Source: Leptolyngbyaceae cyanobacterium (lineage in GTDB: Bacteria > Cyanobacteriota > Cyanobacteriia > Cyanobacteriales > Aerosakkonemataceae). Taken from it: a DNA stretch of 64,000 nt. The notes under the pieces are model-generated. The model was not told the DNA's origin. It made no database searches and saw nothing but the letters and a program-made list of their open reading frames with translations. Where the stretch lies: positions 124,001 to 188,000 of the forward strand of contig DATNQN010000029.1 of NCBI GenBank assembly GCA_036703985.1. Direction: 5' to 3'. The position numbers and the translations under genes were made by a program. Of the stretch, positions 1 to 15,471 are shown in pieces (position 1 is the first letter of the stretch; each line of letters begins with the position of its first letter).

Positions 1-786
1 AAGCAACTCTACACTCCCATCATCGATCGCAAATACGGTGAAGATCTGTCTTTACCACCGGTACCAGTGGTAGAAACCGATATTAACTCGGCAGAAATGA
101 TCAAGTATGCGGCTAATGCTTTCTTAGCAACTAAGATTAGCTTTATTAACGAAGTTGCCAATATTTGCGATCGCGTTGGTGCTGATGTTACCCAAGTTGC
201 CAAAGGGATTGGTTTAGATTCTCGGATTGGCGGTAAATTCTTGCAAGCTGGGATTGGTTGGGGTGGTTCTTGCTTCCCGAAAGATGTTTTAGCACTCATC
301 CATACTGCCAAAGATTATAACTACGAAACCGAAATTCTCAATGCTGCGGTTAGCGTTAACAAACGCCAGCGCGTGATGGCTATTGAAAAACTACAGCACG
401 AACTGAAAATCCTCAAAGGTAAAACCGTTGGTTTGTTGGGTTTAACTTTCAAACCCGATACGGATGACATGAGAGATGCCCCAGCTTTAACTTTGATTGA
501 AGAACTCAATCGTCTGGGTACAAAGGTAAAAGCCTACGATCCTTTGGTTTCTCAAACTGGAATGCGTCATGGTTTAACTGGCGTAATTGTCGAAACCGAT
601 CCGGAACGTTTGGCTGATGGTTGCGATGCGTTGGTGTTAGTGACGGACTGGGCGCAATTTACCAGTTTGGACTACGCTAAAATGGCGAAATTGATGAATA
701 GTCCAGTGATTATTGACGGACGTAATTTCCTCGATCGCAAAGCGTTGCAAGCTGCTGGTTTCCGATATGTAGGTATCGGTCGCTAA
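1..786 (+). CDS. ugd: UDP-glucose 6-dehydrogenase, C-terminal part (5' end outside window)
   Basis: Oxidises UDP-glucose to UDP-glucuronate with two NAD+, supplying sugar for extracellular polysaccharide. The reading frame is open from base 1, so the gene begins upstream; the first GTG in frame at 67 is not the real start. The visible part holds the central helical domain and the C-terminal Rossmann domain of the UDP-glucose/GDP-mannose dehydrogenase family. The catalytic cysteine lies in GGSCFPKD, followed by the C-terminal signature around GLTFKPDTDDMRDAP. The N-terminal NAD-binding domain is missing from view. The gene converges on the next one, with a palindromic repeat between them. The family is certain; UDP-glucose rather than another NDP-sugar as substrate is the likeliest reading. 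Confidence 0.93.
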   Translation, partial: KQLYTPIIDRKYGEDLSLPPVPVVETDINSAEMIKYAANAFLATKISFINEVANICDRVGADVTQVAKGIGLDSRIGGKFLQAGIGWGGSCFPKDVLALIHTAKDYNYETEILNAAVSVNKRQRVMAIEKLQHELKILKGKTVGLLGLTFKPDTDDMRDAPALTLIEELNRLGTKVKAYDPLVSQTGMRHGLTGVIVETDPERLADGCDALVLVTDWAQFTSLDYAKMAKLMNSPVIIDGRNFLDRKALQAAGFRYVGIGR

Positions 787-810
787 ATTTAATTTTAGTG
801 GCCTAAAGAT

Positions 811-843
811 AGAAACCCGGTTTCTTAAAGAAACCGGGTTTCT
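811..843. repeat. Palindromic repeat, copy 1 (arms AGAAACCCGGTTTCTT)
   Basis: Two perfectly complementary 16-nt arms (811-826 and 828-843) are separated by one base. The element lies between the convergent ends of the UDP-glucose dehydrogenase and DUF2993 genes. Related copies occur at 6678, 24262, 47331 and 61374, all 3' of genes. It probably acts as a bidirectional terminator or mRNA 3'-end hairpin, and it belongs to a dispersed repeat family. Confidence 0.9.
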
Positions 844-875
844 GCGTATCTTCCTATCCCTACCGTCAAATTTGC

Positions 876-1670
876 TCAACCGCTACCGGGAAAATGTTCG
901 ATTTGAGCGTAACCACTGAAGAGCAATTTTTTGCCTTGCGTTTCCAAACGGTTGATCCGCATGGTTACGCCGTCGAGATCGAAGCGATCGAGGTCTACCA
1001 TATTGTCTAATATCTCTGCTAATGCTCTTCCAAGTGCCAGAGAAACTGGTTGGGAACGTTCTGGTACGGAATCGAGATGGAATTGAGGGTCTTTAAAACC
1101 GATGCGGCGACGGCGTTCTACGGCGAGGGTGAGGGTCATGCTGACCGGCACGGAACCGTAGTCGGGTAAGTTTGTTTCCGTAAATAGACGAATTCGGTTG
1201 CCGTTTTCGAGTTCGATGCGGATATCTGTAAAAGAAATCGGCAACCCGCCAGAAAATTCCTTGATGGAATCCAGAGAAAGGTTTTGCAGGCGCTTTCTCA
1301 CCAATTCTGCCTGAAAGGATTGATTGATACCTTCTTCCGAGAGCGTAACTAAAGCGATCGCTTGAGTAGGCTGCTTGAGAGTTATCTTACCTTTCAAAAT
1401 CGAGCTAAAGTCCAGGGAAACGGCATCCGTCTCAAACGACATCTCCTCGACGGGAAATTCTCGACGGATCACCAAGCCACGTCCGCTCATTTTGAAGCTG
1501 TCGATACTCCCCTGCAACAGTTTGCTGGACGGAGAGCAACGTACAGAGACCTCCACAGACTCGCTCTTACTGAACAAGTGGCGGATGGATTGGCTAGCAA
1601 CCGTGTTGAGCATTCGCTCTCCCCAATCGCCGCCTGTAGGGTTAGTAAAACCAGTCAGACCACCTAACAT
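876..1670 (-). CDS. DUF2993 (LmeA-like) lipid-binding family protein
   Basis: This 264-residue protein resembles the cyanobacterial DUF2993 family. It has a short N-terminal stretch, then beta-rich sequence with the motif around SFTDIRIELENGNRIRL and a C-terminal segment ending in FSGYAQIEHFPG. The actinobacterial relative LmeA binds phospholipids, but the cyanobacterial role is not established. There is no obvious signal peptide or membrane helix. The start is the ATG at 1670, which gives MLGGLTGF. The gene is monocistronic and convergent with the upstream dehydrogenase gene. The family assignment rests on overall pattern rather than a catalytic motif. Confidence 0.75.
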   Translation of the reverse strand: MLGGLTGFTNPTGGDWGERMLNTVASQSIRHLFSKSESVEVSVRCSPSSKLLQGSIDSFKMSGRGLVIRREFPVEEMSFETDAVSLDFSSILKGKITLKQPTQAIALVTLSEEGINQSFQAELVRKRLQNLSLDSIKEFSGGLPISFTDIRIELENGNRIRLFTETNLPDYGSVPVSMTLTLAVERRRRIGFKDPQFHLDSVPERSQPVSLALGRALAEILDNMVDLDRFDLDGVTMRINRLETQGKKLLFSGYAQIEHFPGSG

Positions 1671-2108
1671 AAAGCCTTGCGTCTATAGAAAGTCTTCATC
1701 CTTTGTAACAAAATGTGAAAAACTCAGCAATCTCTTGCCTAATGTTCTACAAGTGTGCTTATGGTATTGCCTAATACTTTTGCTAGAAACTGCGCTTTAG
1801 GTTGGCTTGGAAAAATACCACTTCTACAACCCTTGCCAAAAAAGGAGTTCAGCAATCGTAACCAATACTATTTTGTCTAATTTTAGGAAATAGTCTCTCT
1901 AAAGGTGTAGGGAAAACCTAAGCGATTTGTAATCATAGCGATTAGTAATTTCTATCTAATTAGCCAACTTGGAAAGCCTACTAAATTTTCGAGCGATCTG
2001 GAGCATTGAGAATAGAGTCTATTCCCAGTCTCCAGATTTTCGTGTAATTCAGAGTTGGTAAAAAAAAATTAAGCATTTTTACACTTGACGAACCATTAAG
2101 GTGTTTTT
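1671..2108. other. Divergent intergenic region
   Basis: This 438-base AT-rich region lies between the divergently transcribed DUF2993 gene and the ABC exporter operon. An open frame running into it from 1375 to 1800 is the antisense shadow of the DUF2993 gene. I see no convincing ORF, RNA or strong repeat. It presumably carries both promoters. Confidence 0.6.
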
Positions 2109-3068
2109 ATGCAAATTATGGCAAAGGAACTCGCAATTTCTACTCGCGGACTAACCAAGCAATTCGATCGCCATCTAGCAGTTAACGATGTTGACCTACA
2201 AGTGGAAGTGGGTGAAGTATACGGACTGATCGGGCCAAATGGTGCTGGTAAAACAACCTTGATCAGGATGTTAGCGGCGGCGGAAGACCCGACTATAGGA
2301 GAAATTTATATCAATGGCGATCGCTTGCTGCGGGACAACAGCAACCCAACTCTCAAGCGGCGCATCGGATTTTTGCCAGATGACTTTCCCTTATACGACG
2401 ATTTGACGGTTTGGGACTATTTGGATTATTTTGCCCGACTTTATCGTTTGAGAGAACCTCGCCGTACCCAACGCTTGTATGAAGTGCTAGAACTGGTACA
2501 GCTAACCAACAAGCGCAATAGTCAAATTTCTACCCTGTCGCGAGGGATGAAACAGCGCCTCAGTCTGGCTAGAACAATTATTCACGAGCCGATCGTGTTG
2601 CTGCTGGATGAACCTGTTTCTGGATTAGATCCGATCGCGAGAATGCAGTTTCGCGAAATCATCAAGACGTTGCGAGAAGCAGGAATGACGATTTTGATTT
2701 CTTCTCACGTTTTGAGCGATTTGGCTGAACTCTGTACCTCAGTGGGGATCATGGAATTAGGCTACTTGGTAGAAAGCTGTTCTCTCAAAGAACTTTATCG
2801 CCGTCTGAGTCGCCAGCAAATCGTTATGGCAACTTTGGGTAGCCAAGAAGCGCTTTTGTCGGAATTGAAAAATCATTCTCTGGTCGAAGATTGGGAAGTT
2901 TTACCAGCTACCCATCAAGTGCGCGTTCACTTTTCGGGCAATCCGGAGGACTCGGCTAAATTATTGCGATCGCTAATCGAAGCCGGAATTCCTCTCACCG
3001 AATTTCACTGTACCCAAGAAGATTTAGAAACAATCTTCCTCAAACTCGGTCACAAACAAGCCTCATAA
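2109..3068 (+). CDS. ABC transporter ATP-binding protein (ABC-2 exporter type)
   Basis: ATPase subunit of an ABC-2-like exporter, 319 residues. Walker A is GPNGAGKTT at about residues 42-50, the signature is LSRGMKQRL at about 143-151, and Walker B is IVLLLDEPVSGLDP at about 162-175. The C-terminal 90 residues form the extension common in ABC-2/NatA-like ATPases. The start could be ATG 2109 or ATG 2118 (MAKELAIS); neither has a strong Shine-Dalgarno. Two paralogous permease genes follow on the same strand, so the three probably form one exporter. The substrate cannot be told from sequence. Confidence 0.93.
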   Translation: MQIMAKELAISTRGLTKQFDRHLAVNDVDLQVEVGEVYGLIGPNGAGKTTLIRMLAAAEDPTIGEIYINGDRLLRDNSNPTLKRRIGFLPDDFPLYDDLTVWDYLDYFARLYRLREPRRTQRLYEVLELVQLTNKRNSQISTLSRGMKQRLSLARTIIHEPIVLLLDEPVSGLDPIARMQFREIIKTLREAGMTILISSHVLSDLAELCTSVGIMELGYLVESCSLKELYRRLSRQQIVMATLGSQEALLSELKNHSLVEDWEVLPATHQVRVHFSGNPEDSAKLLRSLIEAGIPLTEFHCTQEDLETIFLKLGHKQAS

Positions 3069-3069
3069 A

Positions 3070-3095
3070 TTTTAGATTTTAGATTTTAGATTTTA
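3070..3095. repeat. Heptameric tandem repeat (TTTTAGA)n
   Basis: Three exact TTTTAGA heptads plus a partial fourth lie just after the ATPase stop codon. This is the style of the short tandemly repeated repetitive (STRR) sequences known from filamentous cyanobacteria. Confidence 0.75.
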
Positions 3096-3153
3096 TTTAA
3101 TTTATTCAATCTAAGTCGATTATCTAAAACTTCCACCACTTAGGAGAATTATT

Positions 3154-4698
3154 ATGGCAATTAATTTGCTGGATCGCGTTGGCGATTGGAATCCCCAGTT
3201 ATTTCGAGAACTTAAAGGACGTTTTAATTCTTGGAAAGCACGCGCTGCGATCGTCGCTTCTTTACTAGGGCAATTTATACTATTCATTTCTTTAACTCAA
3301 AACCGTTGTTTGAATTATACCGATGGAATTTGCACTCAGTCGGAATGGCATATTTACTGGCAGATAATGTTTAGGTCTCTTGACTGGATACTGCCAATAA
3401 TTTTGCTATTAGCAGGAGTATACGGTTTGGTGAGCGATTTCGCTACAGAAGAACGTAAGGGTACGCTTAATTTTATTCGGCTAGCACCCCAAACCAGTCA
3501 AAGTATTTTAATTGGCAAAATATTAGGAGTACCTGCTTTATTTTATTTAATAATAGCTTTGGCAATACCCCTACATTTTATCTCTGGGTTGATTGCTGGC
3601 GTACCTGCGATTTGGCTATTAGGAATATACGGCCTTTGGATAGCTGGGGCTTCCATTTTTTATACTTTTTTCCTCTTTTACACCTTACAACATAGTTTAA
3701 AAGTAGAAGCAAAAGCGATCGCAGGAGGAGCAAGCTTTATTGCTTTTTGGTTTGCCTTCTTTTACATTGGCGCAGTCGATTTTACTTTAGATTGGTATCG
3801 AGAAACCGATTTTATACAAACTTGGCAATGGTTTTTATTACCCGTTGGAAAATACCCAATTCTGCTTTACGGATTAGTTTTAGTTGGGATCGGCATCGGA
3901 AATTACTTTTTTTGGCAAGCAATTAATCGCCGTTTCAATAATCCAAAATCTACTCTTTTAAGCAAGGAACAAAGCTACTATTGGTTTGCGATTTTACAAA
4001 TTTGGATGTTAGGGTTTGCTTTTTCCCAATCAAGAACGGAAGCTCAACACGTTCTCGGTTTCGGAGTTTTGTTTTTTATTAACCCGATTTTGTTTTTGAT
4101 TTTAAATATAGCTTTGTTACCGAATCGCCAATCCTTAATTGATTGGACTCGTTACCGCAGAACGAGTAAATTGGCTCTCAGACGATTTTGGAAGAGTTAT
4201 CTTGTCAAAGATTTAATTTGGGATGACAGAAGTCCGGCTGTAATAGCAATTGCGATGAATTATCTGATGATGTCAATTATTTGGCTGCCTTGGATATTAT
4301 TATGGTTGAGGAAAAGCTGGGTTGAGGGTATGCAAATTGTTTTGGTTTTAGTCGGTGGTTTAGTATTGACTTTCAATGTAATTTTGATTTATGCCCTACT
4401 TATAGAAGTATTGCGATTGCTAAAAGTTGAACAACGAATATTGATTGGATTGGCGATGTTGGGATTGGTTTTATTTCCTATATTTAGTCGGGAAATTTTT
4501 GGCAGTGGTCTGTTGATGCTAAAATTGTTACTAGTTATCACGCCTTTTCCAGTGGGAATCTTAACTTTCCAATCAATTTTTATTATAGGATTTGGTTTTT
4601 TAACTCAAGTTGTTATTCTAGGGGCTTTGACCCAACAATTAACCCAAAAATTACAAACATTAGGTGAATCAACATCTAAACATATAGTGGCAGGTTAA
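3154..4698 (+). CDS. ABC exporter permease, first paralogue
   Basis: A 514-residue integral membrane protein with about 11-12 hydrophobic segments. The N-terminal amphipathic stretch (LLDRVGDWNPQLFRELKGR) precedes the first membrane helix. A second landmark at about residues 99-121 (EERKGTLNFIRLAPQTSQS, then GKILGVP) is conserved in the neighbouring paralogue. ABC-2 permeases commonly carry such a cytoplasmic coupling element after the first helices. It follows the ATPase gene by 85 bases and precedes a second permease. The start is ATG 3154 with an upstream AGGAG. It probably forms a heterodimer with the next gene product. Confidence 0.88.
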   Translation: MAINLLDRVGDWNPQLFRELKGRFNSWKARAAIVASLLGQFILFISLTQNRCLNYTDGICTQSEWHIYWQIMFRSLDWILPIILLLAGVYGLVSDFATEERKGTLNFIRLAPQTSQSILIGKILGVPALFYLIIALAIPLHFISGLIAGVPAIWLLGIYGLWIAGASIFYTFFLFYTLQHSLKVEAKAIAGGASFIAFWFAFFYIGAVDFTLDWYRETDFIQTWQWFLLPVGKYPILLYGLVLVGIGIGNYFFWQAINRRFNNPKSTLLSKEQSYYWFAILQIWMLGFAFSQSRTEAQHVLGFGVLFFINPILFLILNIALLPNRQSLIDWTRYRRTSKLALRRFWKSYLVKDLIWDDRSPAVIAIAMNYLMMSIIWLPWILLWLRKSWVEGMQIVLVLVGGLVLTFNVILIYALLIEVLRLLKVEQRILIGLAMLGLVLFPIFSREIFGSGLLMLKLLLVITPFPVGILTFQSIFIIGFGFLTQVVILGALTQQLTQKLQTLGESTSKHIVAG

Positions 4699-4762
4699 CG
4701 CTCTTACCTTATACATTAGTGAAAGAACTAAACTTGCAAGCAAACACTAGAGGAGAGAGCAA

Positions 4763-4812
4763 ATAAGAAACCAAAACAAAGCCCCAAAAACTAAGGTTTT
4801 TGGTTTTCTTAT
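4763..4812 (+). terminator. Intercistronic hairpin between the permease genes
   Basis: A 14-pair stem with one bulged base (ATAAGAAACCAAAA at 4763-4776 against 4798-4812) encloses a 21-nt loop. It is not followed by a clear U-tract, so it may attenuate transcription or stabilise mRNA rather than terminate fully. Confidence 0.35.
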
Positions 4813-4865
4813 ACCGTTAATTACCAGATTTACTTTCCAATTCCACTCAATTTGGAGAATTTCCT

Positions 4866-6566
4866 ATGAAATTAAAGTGGATAGACACTTTAGGCGACTG
4901 GAACCCACAAATACTGCGAGAAATTAAAGGTCGAGTCAAATCACGCAACTTATTAATTGCTGGCGTCATTTCTTTGGTAGGGCAATTTCTATTGTTTATT
5001 GCTTTTCAAAGCCAATTACCCGTGGAAAGCAAGTATGGCGGTACGATAACAAATCGGTATTGTACGGGAAACGAGGATTACTACAACCATATTTGCCTGA
5101 AAGATGCTTTTGACAATTTCATCATCAACTGGCCTCAGTGGTGGATAGACTTATTCTTATGGATGAGTGTAATTGGCATTTTTGGACTGCTAGTAGCAGG
5201 AACTTATATGCTAATCAGCGACTTAGCCCAAGAGGAACGGCGGGGTACGCTGAATTTTATTCGCCTCAGCCCTCAATCTACCCAAAGTATCCTAGTTGGC
5301 AAAATCATCGGCGTTCCGATTTTACTTTACGCGATCGCATTTTTGGGGATACCCTTGCACTTGTGGGCGGGAATCTCCGGTCACGTTCCGCCGTTACTTA
5401 TCTGCGGGTTTTATGCAGTTTTAGCTGCTAGTTGTATTTTCTTCTACAGTGGTAGTTTGCTGTTTGGTTTATTTAGTTCTGGTTTCAGTGGATTTCAGCC
5501 TTGGCTGGGTAGCGGATTGGTGATGATGTTCCTCTGGCTTACTTGTGCTAAACCAATCATGAATACGCCAGGAGATTGGCTGAGTTTGTTTTCTCCTTAC
5601 GTATTGCTACCTTATTTAACAGATGCCAGTAATGTAGGAGATCGGTATTGGTTTTCCTATCTGGAAATGAGTAACTTGCAATGGTTTAGCCTGAAATTGG
5701 GTGTTAGCATTGTGAGTTTATTAGCATTTGCTTTGGCGAATTATGCCCTGTGGACTTATTGGATTTGGCAAAGTTTGCAGCGGCGTTTTCCTAATCCAAA
5801 TAAAACAATTTTGAGCAAAGCCCAGAGTTATTTGCTAATAGCTTGCTTTGAAACGATCGGGTTGGGATTTGCGGTACAAACGCCTAGATGGGGAAATTCT
5901 TCATACCACAATACTACCAACTTAAGTTTCTTATTAGTTTTCAATCTGTTCTTGTTTTTGGCGTTAATTAGTACTTTGTCACCCCAAAGGCAAGATTTAG
6001 TTGATTGGGCGCGGTATCGTCGGCAGCGAGTTACAGATGGTAAAAAGTTTTGGGGCAGTTCTGTAGTTAAAGATTTAGTTTGGGCAGAAAAGAGTCCGGC
6101 TTTAGTTGCGATCGCAATTAATTTAATCATCGCTTCTAGCATCTTGATTCCTTGGGTATTATTGTGGTCTGATTTTGCTAAAATGATGGCAGGAATAGCA
6201 TCTGTAATTATCAGTGCTACTTTAATTATGATTTATGCAGTAGTGGCACAACTGATGTTATTAACTCGCACTCGCAAACAAATGCAGTGGGCGGCAGGTG
6301 CAGTAACTGCTTTAATTGTTTTACCACCAGTAATTTGCGGCGTGCTGCTATTGTCACCGGATAAGCATCCTGCACTTTGGCTATTTTCGCCTTTCCCTTG
6401 GGTCGCCATTGAAAATGCTTCTGCAACAACCGTTTTTATGGCTTTCCTAACTCAATTGGGCGCTATTAGTTTGTGCAGTATTCAGTTAAGTCGTCAACTA
6501 AAACGTGCTGGTGAATCTGCTACGAAAGCGTTGTTTGAAGGTAGGAATTCTTTACCAGCTAGTTAG
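4866..6566 (+). CDS. ABC exporter permease, second paralogue
   Basis: A 566-residue membrane protein that is clearly a tandem paralogue of the preceding permease. It shares the N-terminal motif GDWNPQILREIKGR, the element EERRGTLNFIRLSPQSTQS followed by GKIIGVP, the later motif (L)SPQRQDLVDWARYRR, and VVKDLVWAEKSPA, which corresponds to LVKDLIWDDRSPA in the first copy. It is about 50 residues longer, mainly in the extracellular loop after the first helix (about residues 45-95). The start is ATG 4866, with GGAG upstream. With the ATPase at 2109 it completes a three-gene exporter. Substrate unknown. Confidence 0.88.
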   Translation: MKLKWIDTLGDWNPQILREIKGRVKSRNLLIAGVISLVGQFLLFIAFQSQLPVESKYGGTITNRYCTGNEDYYNHICLKDAFDNFIINWPQWWIDLFLWMSVIGIFGLLVAGTYMLISDLAQEERRGTLNFIRLSPQSTQSILVGKIIGVPILLYAIAFLGIPLHLWAGISGHVPPLLICGFYAVLAASCIFFYSGSLLFGLFSSGFSGFQPWLGSGLVMMFLWLTCAKPIMNTPGDWLSLFSPYVLLPYLTDASNVGDRYWFSYLEMSNLQWFSLKLGVSIVSLLAFALANYALWTYWIWQSLQRRFPNPNKTILSKAQSYLLIACFETIGLGFAVQTPRWGNSSYHNTTNLSFLLVFNLFLFLALISTLSPQRQDLVDWARYRRQRVTDGKKFWGSSVVKDLVWAEKSPALVAIAINLIIASSILIPWVLLWSDFAKMMAGIASVIISATLIMIYAVVAQLMLLTRTRKQMQWAAGAVTALIVLPPVICGVLLLSPDKHPALWLFSPFPWVAIENASATTVFMAFLTQLGAISLCSIQLSRQLKRAGESATKALFEGRNSLPAS

Positions 6567-6677
6567 TTCATCGGTATTTTATTGTGGTGGGCGGGTTTAG
6601 TGAATAAACCATTTGTCAAAGAAATAATATTTCGTCAAAACCCTTACAGCAGATACCAGTAATCTGAAGTACGGGAT

Positions 6678-6710
6678 AGAAACCCGGTTTCTTCAAGAAA
6701 CCGGGTTTTT
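6678..6710. repeat. Palindromic repeat, copy 2
   Basis: The arms AGAAACCCGGTTTCTT (6678-6693) and AAGAAACCGGGTTTTT (6695-6710) pair with one mismatch around a single loop base. The right arm ends in a T run. The element sits between the convergent ends of the permease and SucD-like genes, where a bidirectional terminator would be expected. Confidence 0.88.
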
Positions 6711-6746
6711 ATTTACTTACCTGGAAAGCGATGTATGTATAAATTT

Positions 6747-7643
6747 TTACCCTTTCTTAATCGCTTTTTTGACTAATTCGGGAATTTGAGAAGGACGTGG
6801 AGCCACGGGAATTTTTAACTTTTCAAAGGTTGCTATTTTAGTTTCTGCTACATCGATAGAGGCTTCCATCACTGGTTGAGAAACAATTAAATCACTGGCA
6901 TAGCGTTGACGTTTGACGCCCGGTGCATGGCGTCCGGCGATATAAACAACTACGGTTTTTTTAATTTCTTCAGCAATATACCGGGCTACTGTTTCTTCGT
7001 TCCCGCCTTCAGTTTGTCCGATTAAAACAATCGCTTTGGTATTGTCATCTTTATCTAAAATTTCCAACCATTGGCTAAGTGAAGAACCGACTATTCCGTT
7101 ACTACCAATATTGACGCTAATCGATTGACCGATCCCTGTTTTCGTTAGTTCTAAGGCAATTTCAGAAGTTAAAGTGCCGCATCGACTGATTATTCCTACA
7201 GAACCAGATGTATAAAATTCAGCAGGATGAGTTCCTAACAAAATTTTGTCTGGTACGATAATTCCCATACTGTGAGGGCCGACGATCGAGGTTTTGTTGG
7301 CATCGGCAATTCTGAGCAGGTAAATCATGTCTAAGGGTGGCATCCCATTGGTCACGATGATAATTTGTCTGATTTGAGATGCGATCGCTTCTAGCGCTGC
7401 ATCCAATACCAGGTAAGGCGGAACGAAAATGATGCTAGTGTCGATCGCACCAGTGACGGGTAGTGCTTGTTCCACCAAATCAAAAACGGGAATACCATCG
7501 AGTATTTGTCCCCCTTGCCCCGGACTGACTCCCGCCACTACGTTAGTACCGTAGGCTTTCATCTTAGTGGCGTAGGTCGATGCCAGTGGTTCGGTGATAC
7601 CTTGGATTAAGACTTTACTATCTGGTTTTAAATTTAAACTCAT
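6747..7643 (-). CDS. sucD: Succinyl-CoA synthetase alpha-subunit-like protein lacking the active-site histidine
   Basis: A 298-residue protein aligning along its whole length with SucD: an N-terminal CoA-binding Rossmann domain, then the ligase CoA domain. In SucD enzymes a histidine in GHAGAI is phosphorylated during catalysis (His246 in E. coli). An ungapped comparison around IAG..APxxKR puts Tyr248 here (IAGRHAPGVKRQRYASDL), and the following glycine loop is also changed. The paired beta-like gene lies upstream on the same strand after a 311-base gap. The protein may be catalytically altered, regulatory, or act on another acyl-CoA. The family is certain; succinyl-CoA synthetase activity is doubtful. 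Confidence 0.85.
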   Translation of the reverse strand: MSLNLKPDSKVLIQGITEPLASTYATKMKAYGTNVVAGVSPGQGGQILDGIPVFDLVEQALPVTGAIDTSIIFVPPYLVLDAALEAIASQIRQIIIVTNGMPPLDMIYLLRIADANKTSIVGPHSMGIIVPDKILLGTHPAEFYTSGSVGIISRCGTLTSEIALELTKTGIGQSISVNIGSNGIVGSSLSQWLEILDKDDNTKAIVLIGQTEGGNEETVARYIAEEIKKTVVVYIAGRHAPGVKRQRYASDLIVSQPVMEASIDVAETKIATFEKLKIPVAPRPSQIPELVKKAIKKG

Positions 7644-7954
7644 TCAACTGTCGCTCCCCGGCTGTGTTCTACAGTCAGTTTCGCTTATGCGATCGTCGAT
7701 CGGCTACCTCAAATTTTTAGTTGACTCAGCAATTTGACCGGCTCTCCCGGTTTTGGCTCTCCCGGTTTTGTGGTGATAAAAGAAACTTATTTAACGGTAG
7801 GGTGGGTTAGGCGCAGTCGATAATTTCAAGGCTTTCGATCGATAATTTAGTTTCCGTGCCGTAACCACCATCCTACTCAACGGTAAAATATGCGAACATT
7901 TTCCCCATCAATCCGAAAGAGCCGTTTTCTGCTCCCGCTCAAAAATCTCAACAA
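7644..7954. other. Gap between the SucC-like and SucD-like genes
   Basis: 311 bases. Its only notable structure is a direct tandem repeat of the 15-mer GGCTCTCCCGGTTTT (7740-7754 and 7755-7769). The gap is long for a sucCD operon, so sucD may have its own promoter here. Confidence 0.6.
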
Positions 7955-9187
7955 TCAAGAACGCTTTCCAGTTCCTTTAGTAAAAGCAACTGCTTGCAAC
8001 ACGACTTCATCAAACGTATCCACCACAAAAACACCTAATCCTTTTAAACGTTCTTTAGCTTCTTCTTGTCCGGTGCCAGCTAAACGTACTACCAATTTAG
8101 GATAATTGCTCAGTTCTTTTGTCGTCTCTTTATGGAAAAGTTCATTGATAGCGGAAGAATTGGAAACTTCAACAGAATTGGGCGATAAAAAATTTGCGAT
8201 CGCGCTGGCAATTTTATCGCAACTAGGCACGCCGCTCAATATATTAATCACTACTACTTTTATGCCATTTTCTTGAGTAATGTTTTGCAATTCTTCTTGC
8301 AAGCGATCGCATAAATTTTCCGCTTTTTTCCCCGTAATATCTTCTCCTAAATTCATTAATTTGGCTGGCTTCCCTCCTACTTGTTGAATTAAATCCAAAG
8401 TTGCCATACCCAAACCCATACCATTACAAATTATTGCTATATTCCCTTCTGATTGCCAATTATTTTCCTTGTTTGAAGTACGCTTATTACCATTATTTCT
8501 ATGATAATTAAGAGGAAGGTTTGTCTCTAATTTAGGCAGTAAAGCTGTTAAATCGGGATGCCGTTCTAAGGCGGAATCATTAGCAGTTATTTTACCATCT
8601 AACGCCATCAATTCCCCTGAAGGACTCACGCCCAAAGGATTAATTTCTACCAAATCCAAATCTTTTTCTACAAATAACTTATACATCGCTACGACGATGT
8701 TACTTACCGACTCAATTAGGCTTCCCTGCAATCCCATTTTCAGTGCCAATTTGCGAGCGTAGAAAGGAGAAAATCTTTCTTCTACTACTACCTGCTGCAT
8801 TTGCTGCATTACGGCTTCCACATCCACTCCCCCTTGAGGAGAACCCAACAGTACCGGACGCCTCAAAGTATAATCAAGCGCTACTGCCAAATAAAATTCC
8901 CGTTCTGCGTTATATCTGGCTTCTGCTAACAGAACTTCTGGATACTTCCCCATAATTGGCAGGTGAAAAATAGTTTGAGCGGCTGCGATCGCATCGATCG
9001 TATTTTCCACAAACTTAATGCCACCAGCTTTTCCCCTTCCTCCAATCGGTACTTGGGATTTCAACACCACCGGGTAGGGAATTTTCAGACCCTTTAAATC
9101 TCTAGGGCAATCAATTCTTTGAGAAGGCAAAACCGGAATCCCGATTTCCCGAAATAATTCCTTAGCTTGATATTCTAGTAAGTCCAT
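7955..9187 (-). CDS. sucC: Succinyl-CoA synthetase beta-subunit-like (ATP-grasp) protein
   Basis: A 410-residue SucC relative: an N-terminal ATP-grasp domain (starts MDLLEYQAKELFREIGIPV; VEINPLGV at about 180-187) and a C-terminal ligase CoA domain. It is slightly longer than the roughly 390-residue norm because of a polar linker around residues 225-247 (RNNGNKRTSNKENNW). Glycine loops that contact the phosphate in canonical SucC are altered: LDVGGGA reads MNLGEDI, and NIFGGIVRCD reads NILSGVPSCD. Together with the Tyr-for-His change in the neighbouring alpha subunit this suggests a diverged acyl-CoA ligase-like complex. The start is ATG 9187. Confidence 0.85.
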   Translation of the reverse strand: MDLLEYQAKELFREIGIPVLPSQRIDCPRDLKGLKIPYPVVLKSQVPIGGRGKAGGIKFVENTIDAIAAAQTIFHLPIMGKYPEVLLAEARYNAEREFYLAVALDYTLRRPVLLGSPQGGVDVEAVMQQMQQVVVEERFSPFYARKLALKMGLQGSLIESVSNIVVAMYKLFVEKDLDLVEINPLGVSPSGELMALDGKITANDSALERHPDLTALLPKLETNLPLNYHRNNGNKRTSNKENNWQSEGNIAIICNGMGLGMATLDLIQQVGGKPAKLMNLGEDITGKKAENLCDRLQEELQNITQENGIKVVVINILSGVPSCDKIASAIANFLSPNSVEVSNSSAINELFHKETTKELSNYPKLVVRLAGTGQEEAKERLKGLGVFVVDTFDEVVLQAVAFTKGTGKRS

Positions 9188-9201
9188 AATTTTATATTTG
9201 T

Positions 9202-9236
9202 TTGGTAATTAGTAATTAGTAATTGGTAATTGGTAA
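9202..9236. repeat. Heptameric tandem repeat (TTRGTAA)x5
   Basis: Five heptads in a row, TTGGTAA, TTAGTAA, TTAGTAA, TTGGTAA and TTGGTAA, lie between the SucC-like start and the SDR gene end. This is a cyanobacterial STRR-type repeat. Confidence 0.85.
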
Positions 9237-9269
9237 ATTTAATTTTTATTACCTATTACCCTTTACAAA

Positions 9270-10187
9270 TTAGTTATTATTTTGTTTCTCTTTCCATTCT
9301 TTGGCAACTAAATCAATACCATAAAATCTTTGCCAGAAGCGATCTACAGCCCAAGTCGGTAAAATTTTCGTCATTAAAAATAGCAGAAATTCACCACCTG
9401 TAGCAGCAATATATCGCGGCTTCGGATGAGGATCTGTGAGCGCTCTCACAATTACCTCAGCTACCTGTTCGGAAGTCCAAGCCCGACTGCTCGTTTGTGC
9501 TTCTAACTGTTTTAATTTTTCAAATGCGGCTCGATAAGGCGTATTTTCAGGAGCAGTAATAGCTCGTTCAACACCTTGAGCAGCCACATCAAAAAATTCC
9601 GTACTTACTGGCCCGGGTTCAATGACGCTTACCTTAATATTAAATGGCTCTAACTCCATACGGAGAGCATCGCTTAATCCTTCTAAAGCAAATTTCGAGC
9701 CGCTATACAAACCGCCAAAAGGAAACGCCAGTCTTCCACCCAAAGAACTAACATTAATAATTCTGCCGCCCCCTTGTTCCCGCATATGAGGAATCACAGC
9801 CCTAATTAAAGCCAATGGCCCCAAAACATTTACCTCAAACTGATTTCGTGCGGCTGCTGGAGGAATCAGTTCTACTGGCCCCATTTGACCGTAGCCAGCA
9901 TTGTTTACCAGGGCGTCTATTCGGCCAAAGCGAAGAATGGTTCCCCTCGCTAAAGCTTCTACCTGTTCCACATCCGAGATATCGGTGGGAACGACCATCA
10001 CCACTTCTGCCCCAGCTTTGCTACAGTAAGTGGCAGTTGTTTCCAGCTTGGCCTGGTTACGGGCAGCCAACACTAATCGGATGCCCTGGAATTGTTTGGC
10101 CAACAACTGCGCTAATGCCGCGCCAATGCCAGCTGATGCACCTGTAATGATGACGACTTGTTCCGATAAAGAAGTGTTTGCAGACAT
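9270..10187 (-). CDS. Short-chain dehydrogenase/reductase (SDR)
   Basis: A 305-residue classical SDR. The NAD(P)-binding motif is GASAGIGAALAQ at about residues 15-26. NNAGYG lies near residue 95, the catalytic Ser is in NVSSLGG, and the YSGSK (YxxxK) pair follows. After the catalytic core comes an SDR-typical PGPVSTEF loop and a C-terminal extension with a hydrophobic stretch (FLLFLMTKILPTW) that may associate with membrane. It presumably reduces or oxidises a lipid-like or other carbonyl substrate, which is not predictable. The start is ATG 10187. Confidence 0.9.
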   Translation of the reverse strand: MSANTSLSEQVVIITGASAGIGAALAQLLAKQFQGIRLVLAARNQAKLETTATYCSKAGAEVVMVVPTDISDVEQVEALARGTILRFGRIDALVNNAGYGQMGPVELIPPAAARNQFEVNVLGPLALIRAVIPHMREQGGGRIINVSSLGGRLAFPFGGLYSGSKFALEGLSDALRMELEPFNIKVSVIEPGPVSTEFFDVAAQGVERAITAPENTPYRAAFEKLKQLEAQTSSRAWTSEQVAEVIVRALTDPHPKPRYIAATGGEFLLFLMTKILPTWAVDRFWQRFYGIDLVAKEWKEKQNNN

Positions 10188-10370
10188 TTCGATCGAAAAA
10201 ATATGTTTGAGATTTGAACTTGAACCTTGTCTATTTTGTACTCTAATTGGTTAAGCAGGTGATTAACAGGTTTAGTCGTTCTATCTGTATAAGCATCTAG
10301 ATAAGAAAAAATCAAGTAGCTTTAGTTAAAATTTACTAGTTTAAAATTAAAAGCTCAAAGGCGGTATAGG

Positions 10371-12305
10371 ATGACCACAGCAACCAGACATAGCGATTTA
10401 CAAGTATTGGGAAGAGTTTTACAAGAGCGGTTAAACTCCCAATTAGCGACCGAGAGAACGATCGAAGTAAAGTGCGTTTTGCAAGGCGATACTTTGATGG
10501 TTTTAGCACAGGAGGCAAGTTTAGCGAGCGAGCGAGCCGAATCAATCTTTAACGTGCTACAAGATAGCATTGAGGCAATCCAACCATCATTGACCGATTC
10601 GGTATGGGAACAAACTGAGCGGGTACGGCTTTACTTACGCGTGACAGGACAAAGGCAACCCTTTGCCGTTCGGGACTTTACGCTGACAAAATCAAATTTA
10701 TCCCCTGCATTTTCTTCTGCCGATTCAGAGCCAGAATCTAGTCTGGAAAACAATAATTTTAACCACAATGTTTTTCGATGGGATGAAGAAAATCAACCTA
10801 CCGATGACTCAAATTCTTCTGACCGGAAAAATTTTGATTCTCCAGAAGAGCTTCCTTCGGAAGCAATTGCCAGTGAATCTCCTTTTACTTCCGATTCAAT
10901 CGAAGATTTAGCTTTAGAAGAACCTAGTAATGAAGCAGATTCAGAACGAGATTTTCCCCTCGGCAGCCAAAATAATTCTGCTTCTTTAAAAAACCAGCAA
11001 CGAAATGCAGCATTACCTACATTGCTGAAATTTGGCGCTGGAGTAGCGATTATCAGCGCTATAGGTGGTTTTTATGCCGTGACTCGTCCTTGTGTAGTAG
11101 GAGAATGTACTGCAATTGAAAACGCACAACAGTTAAGAAACGAATCGATAAATACTTTAAAGACAGCTAAAACAGAATCAGAAATTCAACAATGTAGAGC
11201 AAAATTAACCAAAGCTACTCGGGAATTAAGCGATATTCCTTTTTGGTCTAGCCATCACGGAGATGCTCAAAAACTAATCAAAAGTTATCGGATCGAAGCT
11301 CAAACAATAGACCCGCTAATTAGCGGTTTAAATGCAGCTAAATTGGCATCTGAAAACAGTCAAAATTCTCCTCATTCAATCCAAAAATGGGAAGAAATAC
11401 AGTCTAATTGGAGACAAGCGATCGCGCAGGTTCAACAAGTACCGCAAAATAGTCTAGTTTATGCTTTATCACAACAAAAATTAAAAACTTACCAAAGTAA
11501 TTTAGCTGCCATCAATCAACGAGTTAAACAAGAACAAGAAGCCGAAACAAAATTTGCCTTGGCTAAGCAAACTGCCAAATTAGGTCAAGTTCGCCAAGAT
11601 GCTGCTAAAACTTTAGGTCATTGGCAGCAAGTTCAGTCAACTTGGGAAGCAGCTATTAACTCTCTATCCTCAATTCCTAAAAATACTGTAGCCTATGAAG
11701 AAGCGCAGCTATTATTAGCAAGCTACCAACCTAATTTAGCCACCGTGCGCGATCGCGTTAACCAAGAAGATATTGCCGCTAAAATTTACAATCAAGCCAT
11801 TACTATTGCATCTCTAGCTAAAAGTTTTGAACAACAAAATCAATGGACGCAAGCAGTTACTTCTTGGCGAAGAGCTTCCACTTACGCTCAACAAGTACCT
11901 TCTGGTACTTATTATCACGCGCAAGCTCAACAGCTAAGCGATAGTTATAGCGCTTCTTTAAGTAAAGCACAAGCTAAATTACAAGTAGCTTTAATTTTAC
12001 AAAAAGCCCGCACCGATCTCGATCGAATTTGTGCTGGAGTACCTAAAATATGTAACCATACGGTCGATCGGCAAACTATCAAAGTATATTTAACCCCTGC
12101 TTATGTAAACGGGGTAAGGCGCACTGCCATGACTGCTGGTTTAAGCGGCGATGCCACAACTTTAGCAGGAGTAGACGACCATCTAAAAACTTTACAAGTG
12201 GCTTTAGAAGCTATTAGCGAAAACGCTGATGTAACTCTGGAAATTTACGATCAAAATCGCGCTTTAATTGGCAGATACGTTCCCCAAACTACTACAAATC
12301 CATAA
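10371..12305 (+). CDS. Membrane-anchored protein with helical repeats, function unknown
   Basis: A 644-residue protein with no family I can name. Residues 1-105 form a folded-looking N-terminal domain (TERTIEVKCVLQGDTLMVLA). Residues 110-210 are an acidic Ser/Asn-rich linker. A single membrane helix lies at about 218-238 (LLKFGAGVAIISAIGGFYAV). The outer part has four degenerate helical repeats of about 60-75 residues (near 262, 336, 411 and 483), each with the pattern W..A...+..+P..S..Y..A...L..Y. The C-terminal 95 residues (about 550-644) look like a compact domain. The start is ATG 10371. It has no operon partner. Confidence 0.8.
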   Translation: MTTATRHSDLQVLGRVLQERLNSQLATERTIEVKCVLQGDTLMVLAQEASLASERAESIFNVLQDSIEAIQPSLTDSVWEQTERVRLYLRVTGQRQPFAVRDFTLTKSNLSPAFSSADSEPESSLENNNFNHNVFRWDEENQPTDDSNSSDRKNFDSPEELPSEAIASESPFTSDSIEDLALEEPSNEADSERDFPLGSQNNSASLKNQQRNAALPTLLKFGAGVAIISAIGGFYAVTRPCVVGECTAIENAQQLRNESINTLKTAKTESEIQQCRAKLTKATRELSDIPFWSSHHGDAQKLIKSYRIEAQTIDPLISGLNAAKLASENSQNSPHSIQKWEEIQSNWRQAIAQVQQVPQNSLVYALSQQKLKTYQSNLAAINQRVKQEQEAETKFALAKQTAKLGQVRQDAAKTLGHWQQVQSTWEAAINSLSSIPKNTVAYEEAQLLLASYQPNLATVRDRVNQEDIAAKIYNQAITIASLAKSFEQQNQWTQAVTSWRRASTYAQQVPSGTYYHAQAQQLSDSYSASLSKAQAKLQVALILQKARTDLDRICAGVPKICNHTVDRQTIKVYLTPAYVNGVRRTAMTAGLSGDATTLAGVDDHLKTLQVALEAISENADVTLEIYDQNRALIGRYVPQTTTNP

Positions 12306-12308
12306 CGT

Positions 12309-12451
12309 TCATCAGCCATTAGTGATTGGTTATTTGTTATTTTTATGTAAATCGATTATGCCTGAAAACGTGCTTAATTCAATTTGATTAACCTAAGACA
12401 TTGCTCAATTTATTGCTTGATAACTAATGACCAATGACTGATGACTGATGA
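12309..12451. repeat. Long imperfect inverted repeat between convergent genes
   Basis: Arms of 31 nt (12309-12339 and 12421-12451) are complementary at 26 of 31 positions without gaps; several mismatches would be G-U pairs in RNA. The right arm contains heptad-like TGACTGA units. The repeat spans the gap between two convergent genes and may serve as a 3'-end structure. Confidence 0.7.
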
Positions 12452-12454
12452 CAA

Positions 12455-13228
12455 TTATATTTTTAATTGTTCGGCTGAGTTAAAAGCTTGCTGACAAATC
12501 CCTCTAGTAACTAAGACGGTAGTGAGTAAACTAGCAAATGCCTGCATAAACAAAATTAGCATTTGGTAAAAAGCGGCTGTGAAAGGATTTATACCGCTTA
12601 AAAGTTGACCGGTGAGAGTTCCGGGCAACGTTACTACGCCGACCACCATCATGGTATTAATATTAGGGATCATTGCTGCTTTAATGGCGTCTTTTCGATA
12701 TTGCGCTACTGCTTGTTGAGATGAAGCGCCCAAACTCAGATGAGTGTCGATTTCCAGACGCGAACTAGTCAGAATGCTACTGAGGCGTTCTCCTGCGATC
12801 GCCGCACCATTCATCGCATTCCCCAATACTATCCCAGCAAAAGGAATAAGATACTGAGGTTCATACCAAGTCGGGATTTGAACTACCAAAAAATTCACGT
12901 ATGCCAAGGTGAGAATAGTACTAATCATTAAAGAAGCACTGACAATAGGCAACAACCAAGGAATTTTCTTCCCAATGCGGCTATTAGCAACCCTAGTCGC
13001 AATAATTAGCATTACTGCCAGCACTACTACCATAATTCCAGGATTCGGTTCGGCGAATACTACCTCTAAAACAAATCCCACTGCCACTAGTTGTAAAATA
13101 GTCCGACCAGTAGCAACTGCTAAAGACCATTCCAGCCCTAACTTTTCCCAAACAGACAAACCAATGGCTACCGCAATTAGCCCGAGCGCCCAAATAAAAT
13201 TTGTTAAATCTGGTTGAACTAAATCCAC
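12455..13228 (-). CDS. fetB: ABC transporter permease of the FetB/UPF0014 family
   Basis: A 257-residue membrane protein with about seven helices that matches the FetB (YbbM)/UPF0014 family. In E. coli, FetAB exports iron. Landmarks are VWEKLGLEWSLAVATGRTILQ, LGNAMNGAAIAGERL, and LSLGASSQQAVAQYRKDA with MIPNINTMMVVGVVTLPGTLTGQLLSG. The open frame extends to 13399, but homology begins near the GTG at 13228 (VDLVQPDLTNFIWALG), which gives the family's usual length. No ATPase partner (FetA) is adjacent. Substrate (iron or another metal) is inferred from the family. Confidence 0.83.
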   Translation of the reverse strand: MDLVQPDLTNFIWALGLIAVAIGLSVWEKLGLEWSLAVATGRTILQLVAVGFVLEVVFAEPNPGIMVVVLAVMLIIATRVANSRIGKKIPWLLPIVSASLMISTILTLAYVNFLVVQIPTWYEPQYLIPFAGIVLGNAMNGAAIAGERLSSILTSSRLEIDTHLSLGASSQQAVAQYRKDAIKAAMIPNINTMMVVGVVTLPGTLTGQLLSGINPFTAAFYQMLILFMQAFASLLTTVLVTRGICQQAFNSAEQLKI

Positions 13229-13401
13229 TGTTTGGAAGATAAAATAATTATTGACATTTTTACTAGCACAAATGCTGATGTGACTAATTTTCAGTTTTGC
13301 CAGAAAATACAGCTTGACAATACATTTTTCTAGCCTAAGATAATCTACCATAACCGTTAGAAAATATACACTAGAGAAAGCGATGATTTCAGGAGGCATC
13401 T

Positions 13402-13467
13402 ATGCGTCTCTTGAAACTCTCCAGAATTTCTAACGAACAAATTGAAAAAGATATGGTAAGCGAGTGA
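13402..13467 (+). CDS. 21-residue leader ORF overlapping the aminotransferase start
   Basis: The ATG at 13402 follows a perfect AGGAGG (13391-13396) with 5-nt spacing. It encodes MRLLKLSRISNEQIEKDMVS plus Glu. Its TGA stop overlaps the GTG start of the next gene (GTGA at 13464-13467). The downstream GTG has no good Shine-Dalgarno of its own, so this upstream ORF probably delivers ribosomes by translational coupling. I do not recognise the peptide; it may be a conserved small protein or only a leader. Confidence 0.6.
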   Translation: MRLLKLSRISNEQIEKDMVSE

Positions 13468-14615
13468 ACAACATTCCCCCTGTTGACTTGGCGCGGCAAT
13501 ACAAAAGCCTTCAAGAAGAAATAAAAACAGCAGTATTAGATGTATTGGCTTCTGGTCGATACATCGGTGGTCTCCCTGTAGAGAGTTTTGAGCAAAAATT
13601 CGCCACTTACCACGGCGTTTCCGAATGCGTAGCCTGTAATTCCGGTACCGATGCTCTTTACCTGGCATTGCGAGCTTTGGGAATTGGTGCTGGAGATGAA
13701 GTAATTACCACACCTTTTACGTTTATAGCCACCGCAGAGGTAATTAGTGCAGTTGGGGCAACTCCTGTATTTGTTGATGTCGATCCCCAAACCTTCAACG
13801 TAGATGTCAGTTTAATAGAAACTGCGATTACCAGCAAAACTAAAGCGATCGTACCGGTGCATTTGTTCGGGCAGCCAGTAGATATGACCCGCGTGATGAA
13901 GATCGCTGAAAATCACGGTTTATCGGTAATTGAAGACTGCGCCCAAGCAACGGGGGCAACATGGGCGGGTAAAAAAGTCGGCAGTATCGGACATATTGGC
14001 TGTTTTAGCTTCTTTCCAACCAAAAATTTAGGTGCTTGTGGCGATGGTGGTGCGATCGTTACCAACGATCCCGTTGTAGCAGCCAAAATCCGAATGTTGC
14101 GAGAACATGGCAGCCGTCAACGCTATTACCATGAAGAAATAGGGGTGAACAGTCGTTTAGATGCTCTGCAAGCTGCCATTCTCCAAGTTAAGTTGGCGCA
14201 TCTTGACAGTTGGAATAAACAACGTTACGAATTGGCGACCCGTTACCATCAATTGCTGGCACCCATTTCTGGTATCGTGCTGCCCCAAGCAATAGAGGGT
14301 GGTGAGAGCGTTTGGAATCAATATACGATTCGGGTAGTCGATCGCGGATTAGCAGAAAATTCTGCCTCTTCTTTTCCTCCCTTACGAGATTTGGTCAGAA
14401 CTCAGATGCAGCAAAGAAGAGTCATTGCGATGGTGTACTATCCGATCCCGCTCCATCTTCAACCCGTTTACCAAAGTTTGGGATACCAAACCGGGCAATT
14501 GCCAGTAGCAGAACAAGCTTGTCGCGAAGTATTGTCCCTACCCATATTCCCGGAATTATCCCCAGCACAGCAAGAAGATGTAGTTTATAGCTTAAAGGAT
14601 AGCCTAGCTGGTTAG
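13464..14615 (+). CDS. DegT/DnrJ/EryC1/StrS-family PLP aminotransferase
   Basis: A 383-residue sugar aminotransferase, probably acting on a nucleotide-linked keto-sugar for surface polysaccharide. The PLP lysine is Lys187 in SFFPTKNLGACGDGG, and the cofactor-binding aspartate is in VIEDCAQATGA (about residue 158). The N-terminal substrate loop GRYIGGLPVESFE and the GTDALYLALRALGIGAGDEV segment are typical. It starts at GTG 13464, overlapping the leader ORF stop. No other sugar-pathway gene is adjacent, so the sugar product cannot be named. Confidence 0.93.
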   Translation: MNNIPPVDLARQYKSLQEEIKTAVLDVLASGRYIGGLPVESFEQKFATYHGVSECVACNSGTDALYLALRALGIGAGDEVITTPFTFIATAEVISAVGATPVFVDVDPQTFNVDVSLIETAITSKTKAIVPVHLFGQPVDMTRVMKIAENHGLSVIEDCAQATGATWAGKKVGSIGHIGCFSFFPTKNLGACGDGGAIVTNDPVVAAKIRMLREHGSRQRYYHEEIGVNSRLDALQAAILQVKLAHLDSWNKQRYELATRYHQLLAPISGIVLPQAIEGGESVWNQYTIRVVDRGLAENSASSFPPLRDLVRTQMQQRRVIAMVYYPIPLHLQPVYQSLGYQTGQLPVAEQACREVLSLPIFPELSPAQQEDVVYSLKDSLAG

Positions 14616-14703
14616 GGGCTAGGGGTTAGGAGCTAGGGAAAAAATAGTAAACATCATATTTTTCCCACTCACCCACTGTCCTCCTCTCCCCCCAACCCCT
14701 CAT

Positions 14704-15471
14704 TTACGCGGTAATCCTGGTCCGGCTAACGGTTGCCAGTGCTTCTACTAAACTGCGAACGGCTGCTACCATAGCTACTTCGCTGTTCAATCGGTTAACA
14801 GCCGAACCAACACCTACACCAGCAGCGCCCGCCGCGATCGCTAGGGGTGCTGTTACGTTGGAAATACCAGAAGCGCATAGCACCGGTACTGATACGGCGC
14901 GAGAAATTTCATAAGCTGCTGCTAAAGTGGGGGCTGCTTTTTCGATCGTTCCCAGCGTACCTGCGTGCGTTGGGGTAGCGCTTACTCCGCCTTCTGTTTG
15001 AATAATATCGGCACCTGCTTTAACTAAAGCTTCTGCCAGCTGTACTTGCTCGGACAACTGTAAAATATGAGGAACGGTGACTGATAAGGTAATTTTCGGT
15101 AAGAGGGTTCTGGTTGTTCGTGTAATTTCTAACACTTCAGCCGCCTCGAACTGACGACCGCAAGCGTAGAAACTATCGAAGTTCCCAATTTCAATCAAAT
15201 CAGCACCGGCTGCTACGACTGGGACAAATTTTTCCGGTTCTACCGCCGAAACACAGATAGGCAAGCTAGTGAGTTCGCGGCATAACTTAACCAAATCCGG
15301 ATCGGCAGCAATATCGACGAATGTAGCACCACCAAGGTCTGCGGCTTTTACTGTGGCGGCTACTAGTGCCGGATCGAAATTATTCAAGCCACTGATAATT
15401 TTGAGGGCGCTTCCTTGTTCAAAAGCACGCTGTAGTATTGGATGTGTTGTCATGCTGTAACTTTCGCTCAA
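14704..15471 (-). CDS. ycf23: Ycf23 / DUF561 family protein
   Basis: A 255-residue TIM-barrel-like protein of the Ycf23 (DUF561) family, found in cyanobacteria and some algal plastids. Landmarks are ALKIISGLNNFD at about residues 22-33, ATFVDIAADPDLV, DLIEIGNFDSFYACGR and the C-terminal VGVGSAVNRLNSE. The sequence resembles phosphate-binding barrel enzymes, but no catalytic activity is known. Either ATG 15471 or ATG 15453 (MTTHPILQRA) could be the start. A 257-base divergent region separates it from the sigma factor gene. Confidence 0.88.
   Translation of the reverse strand: MSESYSMTTHPILQRAFEQGSALKIISGLNNFDPALVAATVKAADLGGATFVDIAADPDLVKLCRELTSLPICVSAVEPEKFVPVVAAGADLIEIGNFDSFYACGRQFEAAEVLEITRTTRTLLPKITLSVTVPHILQLSEQVQLAEALVKAGADIIQTEGGVSATPTHAGTLGTIEKAAPTLAAAYEISRAVSVPVLCASGISNVTAPLAIAAGAAGVGVGSAVNRLNSEVAMVAAVRSLVEALATVSRTRITA

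Follow-up and report, generated by a model that had tools for sequence, protein, structure and literature searches.

A conserved cyanobacterial SucC/SucD pair without the phosphohistidine of succinyl-CoA synthetase

In succinyl-CoA synthetase, a histidine and a glutamate of the alpha subunit SucD accept phosphate from ATP and pass it on, and a SucD that carries neither residue raises the question of what its gene is kept for. Such a gene lies in a stretch of 64,000 nucleotides from a Leptolyngbyaceae cyanobacterium (contig DATNQN010000029.1, positions 124,001 to 188,000; hereafter the window), in which we placed the following features.

6747..7643, minus strand: SucD-like alpha subunit, 298 aa, with Tyr248 and Gln210 (ORF, alignment, and fold match to solved SucD chains with a top Z of 28)
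6900..6902, minus strand: TAT codon for Tyr248, equivalent to mature His246 of E. coli (position computed from the ORF)
7014..7016, minus strand: codon for Gln210, equivalent to mature Glu208 of E. coli (position computed from the ORF)
7644..7954, minus strand: gap of 311 bases between sucC and sucD (ORF coordinates)
7955..9187, minus strand: SucC-like beta subunit, 410 aa, with the ATP-grasp residues kept and C-terminal loops altered (ORF, Pfam, alignment)
9270..10187, minus strand: short-chain dehydrogenase, 82 bases upstream of sucC (ORF, Pfam)

The initial annotation had placed a tyrosine at the position of the phosphorylated E. coli histidine in a gene at 6747-7643; both the residue and the coordinates were borne out, the strand being minus. 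Indeed, a phmmer comparison with SucD chains in the PDB aligned KRQRYASDLI of the window protein with KRMGHAGAII of the solved enzymes, and an alignment of 228 rows matched Tyr248 with E. coli His247 counting the methionine, or mature His246, so that the phosphohistidine of the GHAGA motif is replaced by tyrosine. The same alignment revealed Gln210 in place of E. coli Glu208 (209 with the methionine), which we take to be the partner residue of the phosphohistidine. The open reading frame starts with ATG, contains no internal stop and encodes a full-length SucD fold with the CoA-binding and ligase domains of Pfam and the glycine-rich CoA-binding motifs preserved. An AlphaFold model adopted the SucD fold (pLDDT 79), and its top structural matches were solved SucD chains (Z 27-28 across 264-276 residues for the leading rows); the loop of residues 241-263 had a pLDDT under 50, too uncertain for placing Tyr248. 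A better alignment with another histidine at the site, named at the outset as an observation that would overturn the reading, was sought and none was found in the window SucD. The remaining histidines are only H124, H139 and H239, the nearest lying more than eight residues from Tyr248, and all three vary within the family of ten genomes to which the window belongs: H124 is Asn in all nine other members, H239 is His in 4 of the 10 and Tyr or Leu in the others, and H139, present in 93 of 98 His-bearing proteins, is Tyr or Gln in 4 of the 10. A relocated histidine in the window protein was thus rejected.

We then examined the beta subunit, whose glycine loops had been described as altered. By Pfam, the window SucC contains ATP-grasp and ligase domains, and the pair as a whole thus carries the CoA-binding, ligase and ATP-grasp domains expected of succinyl-CoA synthetase. 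The window protein retains K46, R54, E99, E107, E197, N199 and D213, including K46, R54, E107, E197, N199 and D213, presumably the ATP-binding or -activating residues of E. coli SucC, and the ATP-grasp residues examined were intact in all ten family SucCs. Two C-terminal loops near the acyl site do depart from the E. coli sequence (CNGMG for VNGAG, and NILSGVPSCD for NIFGGIVRCD), but at positions that are variable among His-bearing cyanobacteria as well. The loop observation therefore stands in part, while the further suggestion of coupled changes in both subunits does not hold for the window lineage. The gene sucC lies upstream of sucD on the same strand, and the gap between the two genes across 181 two-gene loci had a median of 132 and a maximum of 1296 bases. 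The short-chain dehydrogenase at 9270..10187 is a possible operon mate of sucC; members of its family are present at 26 of 221 loci, a count that includes the window and enters some contigs twice.

The closest NCBIfam models for the window alpha and beta proteins were those of the succinyl-CoA synthetase subunits (NF004230/TIGR01019 and NF001913/TIGR01016), a system that shares two subunits, their domains and the sucC-sucD order with the window pair, which differs from it in lacking the phosphohistidine and Glu208. The scores stayed below the curated cut-offs, with 257.5 and 243.9 bits against 336 and 353.2 for alpha, and 241.7 and 244.2 bits against 370 and 375.55 for beta. The His-bearing cyanobacterial SucDs L004, L019 and L034 also fell under the alpha cut-offs, which the E. 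coli SucD control and the basal cyanobacterial L119 passed; a distinct cyanobacterial subfamily therefore seems to have formed first. Further relatives were compared. The Pat/PatZ (YfiQ) acetyltransferases contain an NDP-forming acyl-CoA synthetase domain that has lost catalysis and serves ligand sensing, on one long polypeptide that also bears a GNAT domain; the window SucD, in contrast, is 298 aa long with zero GNAT matches in Pfam. Citryl-CoA synthetase and ATP-citrate lyase share their superfamily and fold with SucD (Z about 23-25 against the window protein), but have larger subunits and lower identity than SucD chains. AllF (FdrA) of E. coli oxamic transcarbamylase is related to SucD, matches the SucD profile and takes part in a reaction other than acyl-CoA synthesis; as described in the available part of PMC11326118, AllFGH is a working transcarbamylase whose AllF was formerly annotated as an acyl-CoA synthetase. 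AllF is a 555-aa protein that acts with AllG and AllH, and its match to the SucD profile ends before the His region. No AllG or AllH partner (DUF1116, DUF2877) was found by Pfam among the 12 ORFs beside sucD (window 1-15453).

To place the pair in its metabolic context, we searched the host genome (7.68 Mb, 100% complete) and 388 genomes drawn from across the class, at least 150 of which had a SucD match, among the matches listed, down to an E value of 1.6e-34; two further genomes, G300 and G323 (E about 1e-33 to 1e-34), lie outside this SucD sample. A search of the host genome for a second, canonical sucCD pair, proposed in the initial annotation, gave none. The sole other superfamily match found there was an NDP-forming acyl-CoA synthetase-like open frame of 924 aa (locus L002, G000:C22:52377-52934) in which both catalytic residues, His and Glu, are present. 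The E1 component of 2-oxoglutarate dehydrogenase had no match in the host genome, in a search that was positive in 7 of 14 control genomes. The family of MetA (homoserine O-succinyltransferase) was present in 51 of the 388 genomes, all of families f17 and f27, with zero matches in the host genome or in the at least 150 SucD-bearing genomes among the matches listed. For DapD, in the kinds known to the models used, 68 of the 388 genomes had matches at E up to 0.001. Six of these, all of genus g121 in family f28, matched strongly (5 over the cut-off), and none of the six was among the at least 150 SucD genomes in the matches listed; the other 62, some of them SucD-bearing, matched only weakly (best 2.4e-7). 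DapD over the cut-off was found neither in the host genome nor in the at least 150 genomes listed with SucD. The usual source of succinyl-CoA and two of its known users, as modelled, were thus not found alongside the window pair.

The selection acting on the genes was analyzed within the window's family, in which all ten genomes hold one sucC and one sucD. The catalytic position is His in 6 of the 10 members and flips among His, Tyr and Arg (codons CAC, CAT, CGC, TAC and TAT), with Tyr or Arg in three sister genomes. The ratio dN/dS was 0.056-0.173 (median 0.119, 15 usable pairs), indicating purifying selection, and 0.104-0.126 for the window sucD against four of its kin. In the family alignment, variability at the His position exceeds that of 249 of the 294 columns, and at the Glu position that of 266; 134 columns are invariant. 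The protein is thus constrained as a whole, its former catalytic residues much less so. Since the genes are intact, no second pair exists in the host and purifying selection acts on the protein, functional change rather than random decay, as the initial annotation had argued, fits best; plain gene decay is unsupported, given the open reading frames and dN/dS. In 8 of the 9 kin sucC lies apart from sucD, about 10 kb off in two and on another contig in six, in one of which (G391) the contig ends prove a separation of at least 2 kb only. As a related observation, sucC was absent from the retrieved sucD flanks of L291-L298 (most of the window's family) and of the Synechocystis-like L145, L147 and L299.

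We next mapped the catalytic residues over the class, in which each of the at least 150 genomes among the matches listed appears once in the SucD search. After L148, L155, L159 and L161 had been dropped as truncated, the 146 full-length SucDs of the matches listed had His at the catalytic position in 89 cases, a gap in 3 and another residue in 54 (21 Q, 17 D, 8 N, 2 Y, 2 E, 2 P, 1 T and 1 R). By family code, and within the same matches, His was absent in 49 of the 58 members of the window's order against 8 of the 88 outside it; among 80 named loci chosen by closeness to the query, it was present in 20. The sucD phylogeny, likewise suggested at the outset, was built from 132 rows with the active-site columns removed, and required at least 12 changes between His and non-His, of which the starred branches alone force 4; some His-less lineages sit on very long branches. 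A single clade of all non-His rows was rejected (AU test, p 5.4e-8, 78-row tree, with the group named after the tree had been seen, rows thinned by identity and 20 long-branch rows listed for omission). Judged from these trees, the histidine appears to have been lost repeatedly across the class rather than once. Three large groups lack it wholly or partly, namely the Nostocaceae, a clade with Asp or Asn at the site, and the window's own, mixed family. L019 and L195, moderately supported neighbours of the Nostocaceae in the tree, have WGHTGT in the loop and still both His and Glu, so that the loop change seems to precede the loss of His. In raw counts over 225 rows, E. coli included, 93 kept both His and Glu, 113 lost both, 12 kept His only and 7 Glu only; a correlated loss was rejected as a statistic, since these counts are confounded by descent and the 4 independent pairs were non-significant. 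Separately, plasmid homologues gave 90 records, the best 15 of 90 being SucDs of other bacteria with 38-40% identity, and the SucC matches of L314-L316 (genus g164) contain one TAA as read by the search.

The most uniform change was observed in the Nostocaceae (family f6, identified by named loci, Dolichospermum among them), in which His was missing in 23 of 23 genomes (20 Q, 1 N, 1 E and 1 T) and all 23 read GQPGG at the Glu position. A larger Nostocaceae group of 76, picked by motif, had Gln for Glu208 in all 76 and Gln for His in 71, counts that are partly circular because the group was selected by the PGG motif and a non-His state. The SucC counts were limited to sequences of 360 aa or more encoded at the SucD locus, with nine family SucCs added separately; beta Asp213, which we take to be a Mg ligand, was Asn in 73 of 73 Nostocaceae SucCs, versus Asp in 78 of 78 SucCs paired with His-bearing SucDs, a result free of the circularity of the two alpha counts. 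The change in both subunits that had been ascribed to the window lineage is thus found in the Nostocaceae instead (His to Gln and Glu208 to Gln in alpha, Asp213 to Asn in beta). Median dN/dS was 0.095 for sucD and 0.140 for sucC in the Nostocaceae, and 0.150 and 0.085, respectively, in the His-bearing set, and the Nostocaceae SucD motif is constant over many named genera. From the sequences, the active-site change in this family is settled.

The Asp/Asn clade includes genomes that stand in for the model strains, since Synechocystis 6803 and Synechococcus 7002 were represented by congeners placed by OCP and cyanoglobin similarity, with the source organisms of the PDB OCP and cyanoglobin chains assumed by us. 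His was lacking in 5 of 5 Synechocystis-like and 6 of 6 Picosynechococcus-like genomes, the latter with Asp in 5 and Asn in 1 at the site. The Picosynechococcus-like SucDs (L154, L156 and L277-L280) read S-C-(H/Y)-(D/N)-A, with a histidine one residue earlier in 5 of the 6, and three members of the window's family likewise carry His one residue before the catalytic position; a shifted phosphohistidine may therefore be possible in these genomes.

Published physiology treats the cyanobacterial pair as a working enzyme. In the available excerpts of PMC5160925, a sucCD deletion in Synechococcus 7002 lowered succinate and malate to about 60% in the light and 40% in the dark, no growth of the sucCD-deleted strain was obtained under 2% CO2 sparging, and a quadruple mutant had succinate near wild type; the authors read the succinate drop as support for SucCD converting succinyl-CoA to succinate. 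For Synechocystis, the accessible portions of two further papers report that both SucC and SucD were quantified in the proteome (PMC9175036) and that succinyl-CoA was measured in extracts (PMC9855186); the latter makes another source or residual activity possible. A Synechocystis review, in the part available and citing PMC5160925, states that SucCD "probably" makes succinyl-CoA for methionine and lysine (PMC7133116), in contrast to our residue survey, according to which many cyanobacterial SucDs could not work by the known mechanism. No His-less or pseudoenzyme cyanobacterial succinyl-CoA synthetase appeared by title or abstract in the literature searched, which covered few subscription papers. 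The fold and family are known; a His-less SucC/SucD pair under selection and spread over cyanobacteria was not encountered in the same literature.

What, then, might the pair do? Because the residues of the phosphate relay are lost, normal synthesis should fail, and because the genes persist nonetheless, some other reason for their retention is needed. We give about even weight to a complex that has lost the phosphohistidine shuttle and is retained in a different role, most probably the binding of ligands. In such a complex, the alpha subunit would be unable to relay phosphate by way of a histidine from the ATP site in SucC to the site for CoA and succinate in SucD, the pair would presumably fail as a normal succinyl-CoA synthetase, and the subunits could bind acyl-CoA (or CoA) and nucleotide and act through binding, for example as a sensor or a partner protein. 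Its support comes from the replaced His and Glu in a single-copy pair, the missing matches for 2-oxoglutarate dehydrogenase E1, MetA and (over the cut-off) DapD, the low family dN/dS alongside variable catalytic columns, the retention of both genes in all ten genomes, the uniform change in the Nostocaceae, the detection of both subunits in the Synechocystis proteome and the deletion phenotype described in the portion of PMC5160925 cited above. Against it count the view of those same authors, as far as the excerpts extend, that SucCD is a working enzyme, the succinyl-CoA reported for Synechocystis in the available text of PMC9855186, the flips at the His position, the non-significant independent pairs for a joint loss of His and Glu, and the neighbouring histidine of the Picosynechococcus-like genomes and of three family members. 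We favoured this binding complex over changed catalysis, and changed catalysis over slow drift.

An enzyme that needs no phosphohistidine is unlikely, though it heads the alternatives. It could phosphorylate a carboxylate directly at the ATP-grasp site of SucC or, by analogy with AllF (FdrA) and covered by the same estimate, might act as an acyl-phosphate/CoA or carbamoyl transferase. The intact ATP-grasp residues of all ten family SucCs, the purifying selection and the precedent of AllFGH, whose FdrA matches the SucD profile (PMC11326118, in the part available), are in its favour, but the unsettled H/Y/R state within the family is odd for a new active site, and the replacement of beta Asp213 by Asn in 73 of 73 Nostocaceae argues against ATP chemistry there.

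Slow drift, in which the reaction is unneeded and erosion begins at the catalytic residues of genes that will eventually disappear, as in cyanobacterial families without sucCD, we regard as improbable too. Such drift is also compatible with a position that flips among His, Tyr and Arg and is still His in 6 of the 10 family members, with the missing match for 2-oxoglutarate dehydrogenase E1 and the absence of MetA or DapD over the cut-off in the host genome, with the separation of sucC from sucD in 8 of 9 kin and with the very long branches of some His-less lineages; moreover, the large family f28 has no genome among the at least 150 with a SucD-level match in the matches listed. However, dN/dS is low in both the family and the Nostocaceae, none of the ten family genomes has lost either gene, many named genera of Nostocaceae share the motif, and deletion has a phenotype in Synechococcus 7002 (excerpts of PMC5160925). 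The window's family alone thus fits drift better than the Nostocaceae do.

A succinyl-CoA synthetase that still functions, with another residue carrying the phosphate or a loop that aligns differently, is very unlikely. It would agree with the retained fold and CoA-binding domain, with the low pLDDT of the model at loop 241-263 and with the published readings of the Synechococcus 7002 mutants, which assume an active enzyme (PMC5160925, in the excerpts available), but in the window protein the eight residues to either side of the site include no His, H239 is not constant among family members, Glu208 is also lost, and Tyr alternates with Arg, which is incapable of phosphoryl relay. A sequencing or assembly error at the Tyr248 codon is barely credible: CAT and TAT do differ by one base and a single assembly is concerned, but against it stand the separate Glu to Gln change, the Tyr or Arg found in three sister genomes, and the non-His residue of 53 further genomes in the class sample, among the matches listed.

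The host's only SucD thus lacks the reaction-carrying histidine, and in several lineages the usual succinyl-CoA step probably does not proceed by the known mechanism. We propose tentatively, giving it a little under even weight, that in much of cyanobacterial diversity, including the Nostocaceae and the genera to which Synechocystis 6803 and Synechococcus 7002 belong, the conserved SucC/SucD would be a regulator or a new enzyme rather than a synthetase, whose residues may have been switched off several times independently after 2-oxoglutarate dehydrogenase and the need for succinyl-CoA had vanished. The role of SucCD in cyanobacteria without 2-oxoglutarate dehydrogenase is an old question, now testable by means of the His-bearing and His-less versions.

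Finally, two further features of the neighbourhood were observed on the plus strand of the window. A 644-aa protein without a Pfam match (10371-12305) belongs to a family present in 69 of 221 sucCD loci (the window included, some contigs twice), most of which carry a His-less (Gln) SucD. The region 2109-6566 encodes an ABC transporter ATPase and, after it, two paralogous permease-like proteins that lack a Pfam match; the permease-like family occurs in 33 of the 221 sucCD loci.
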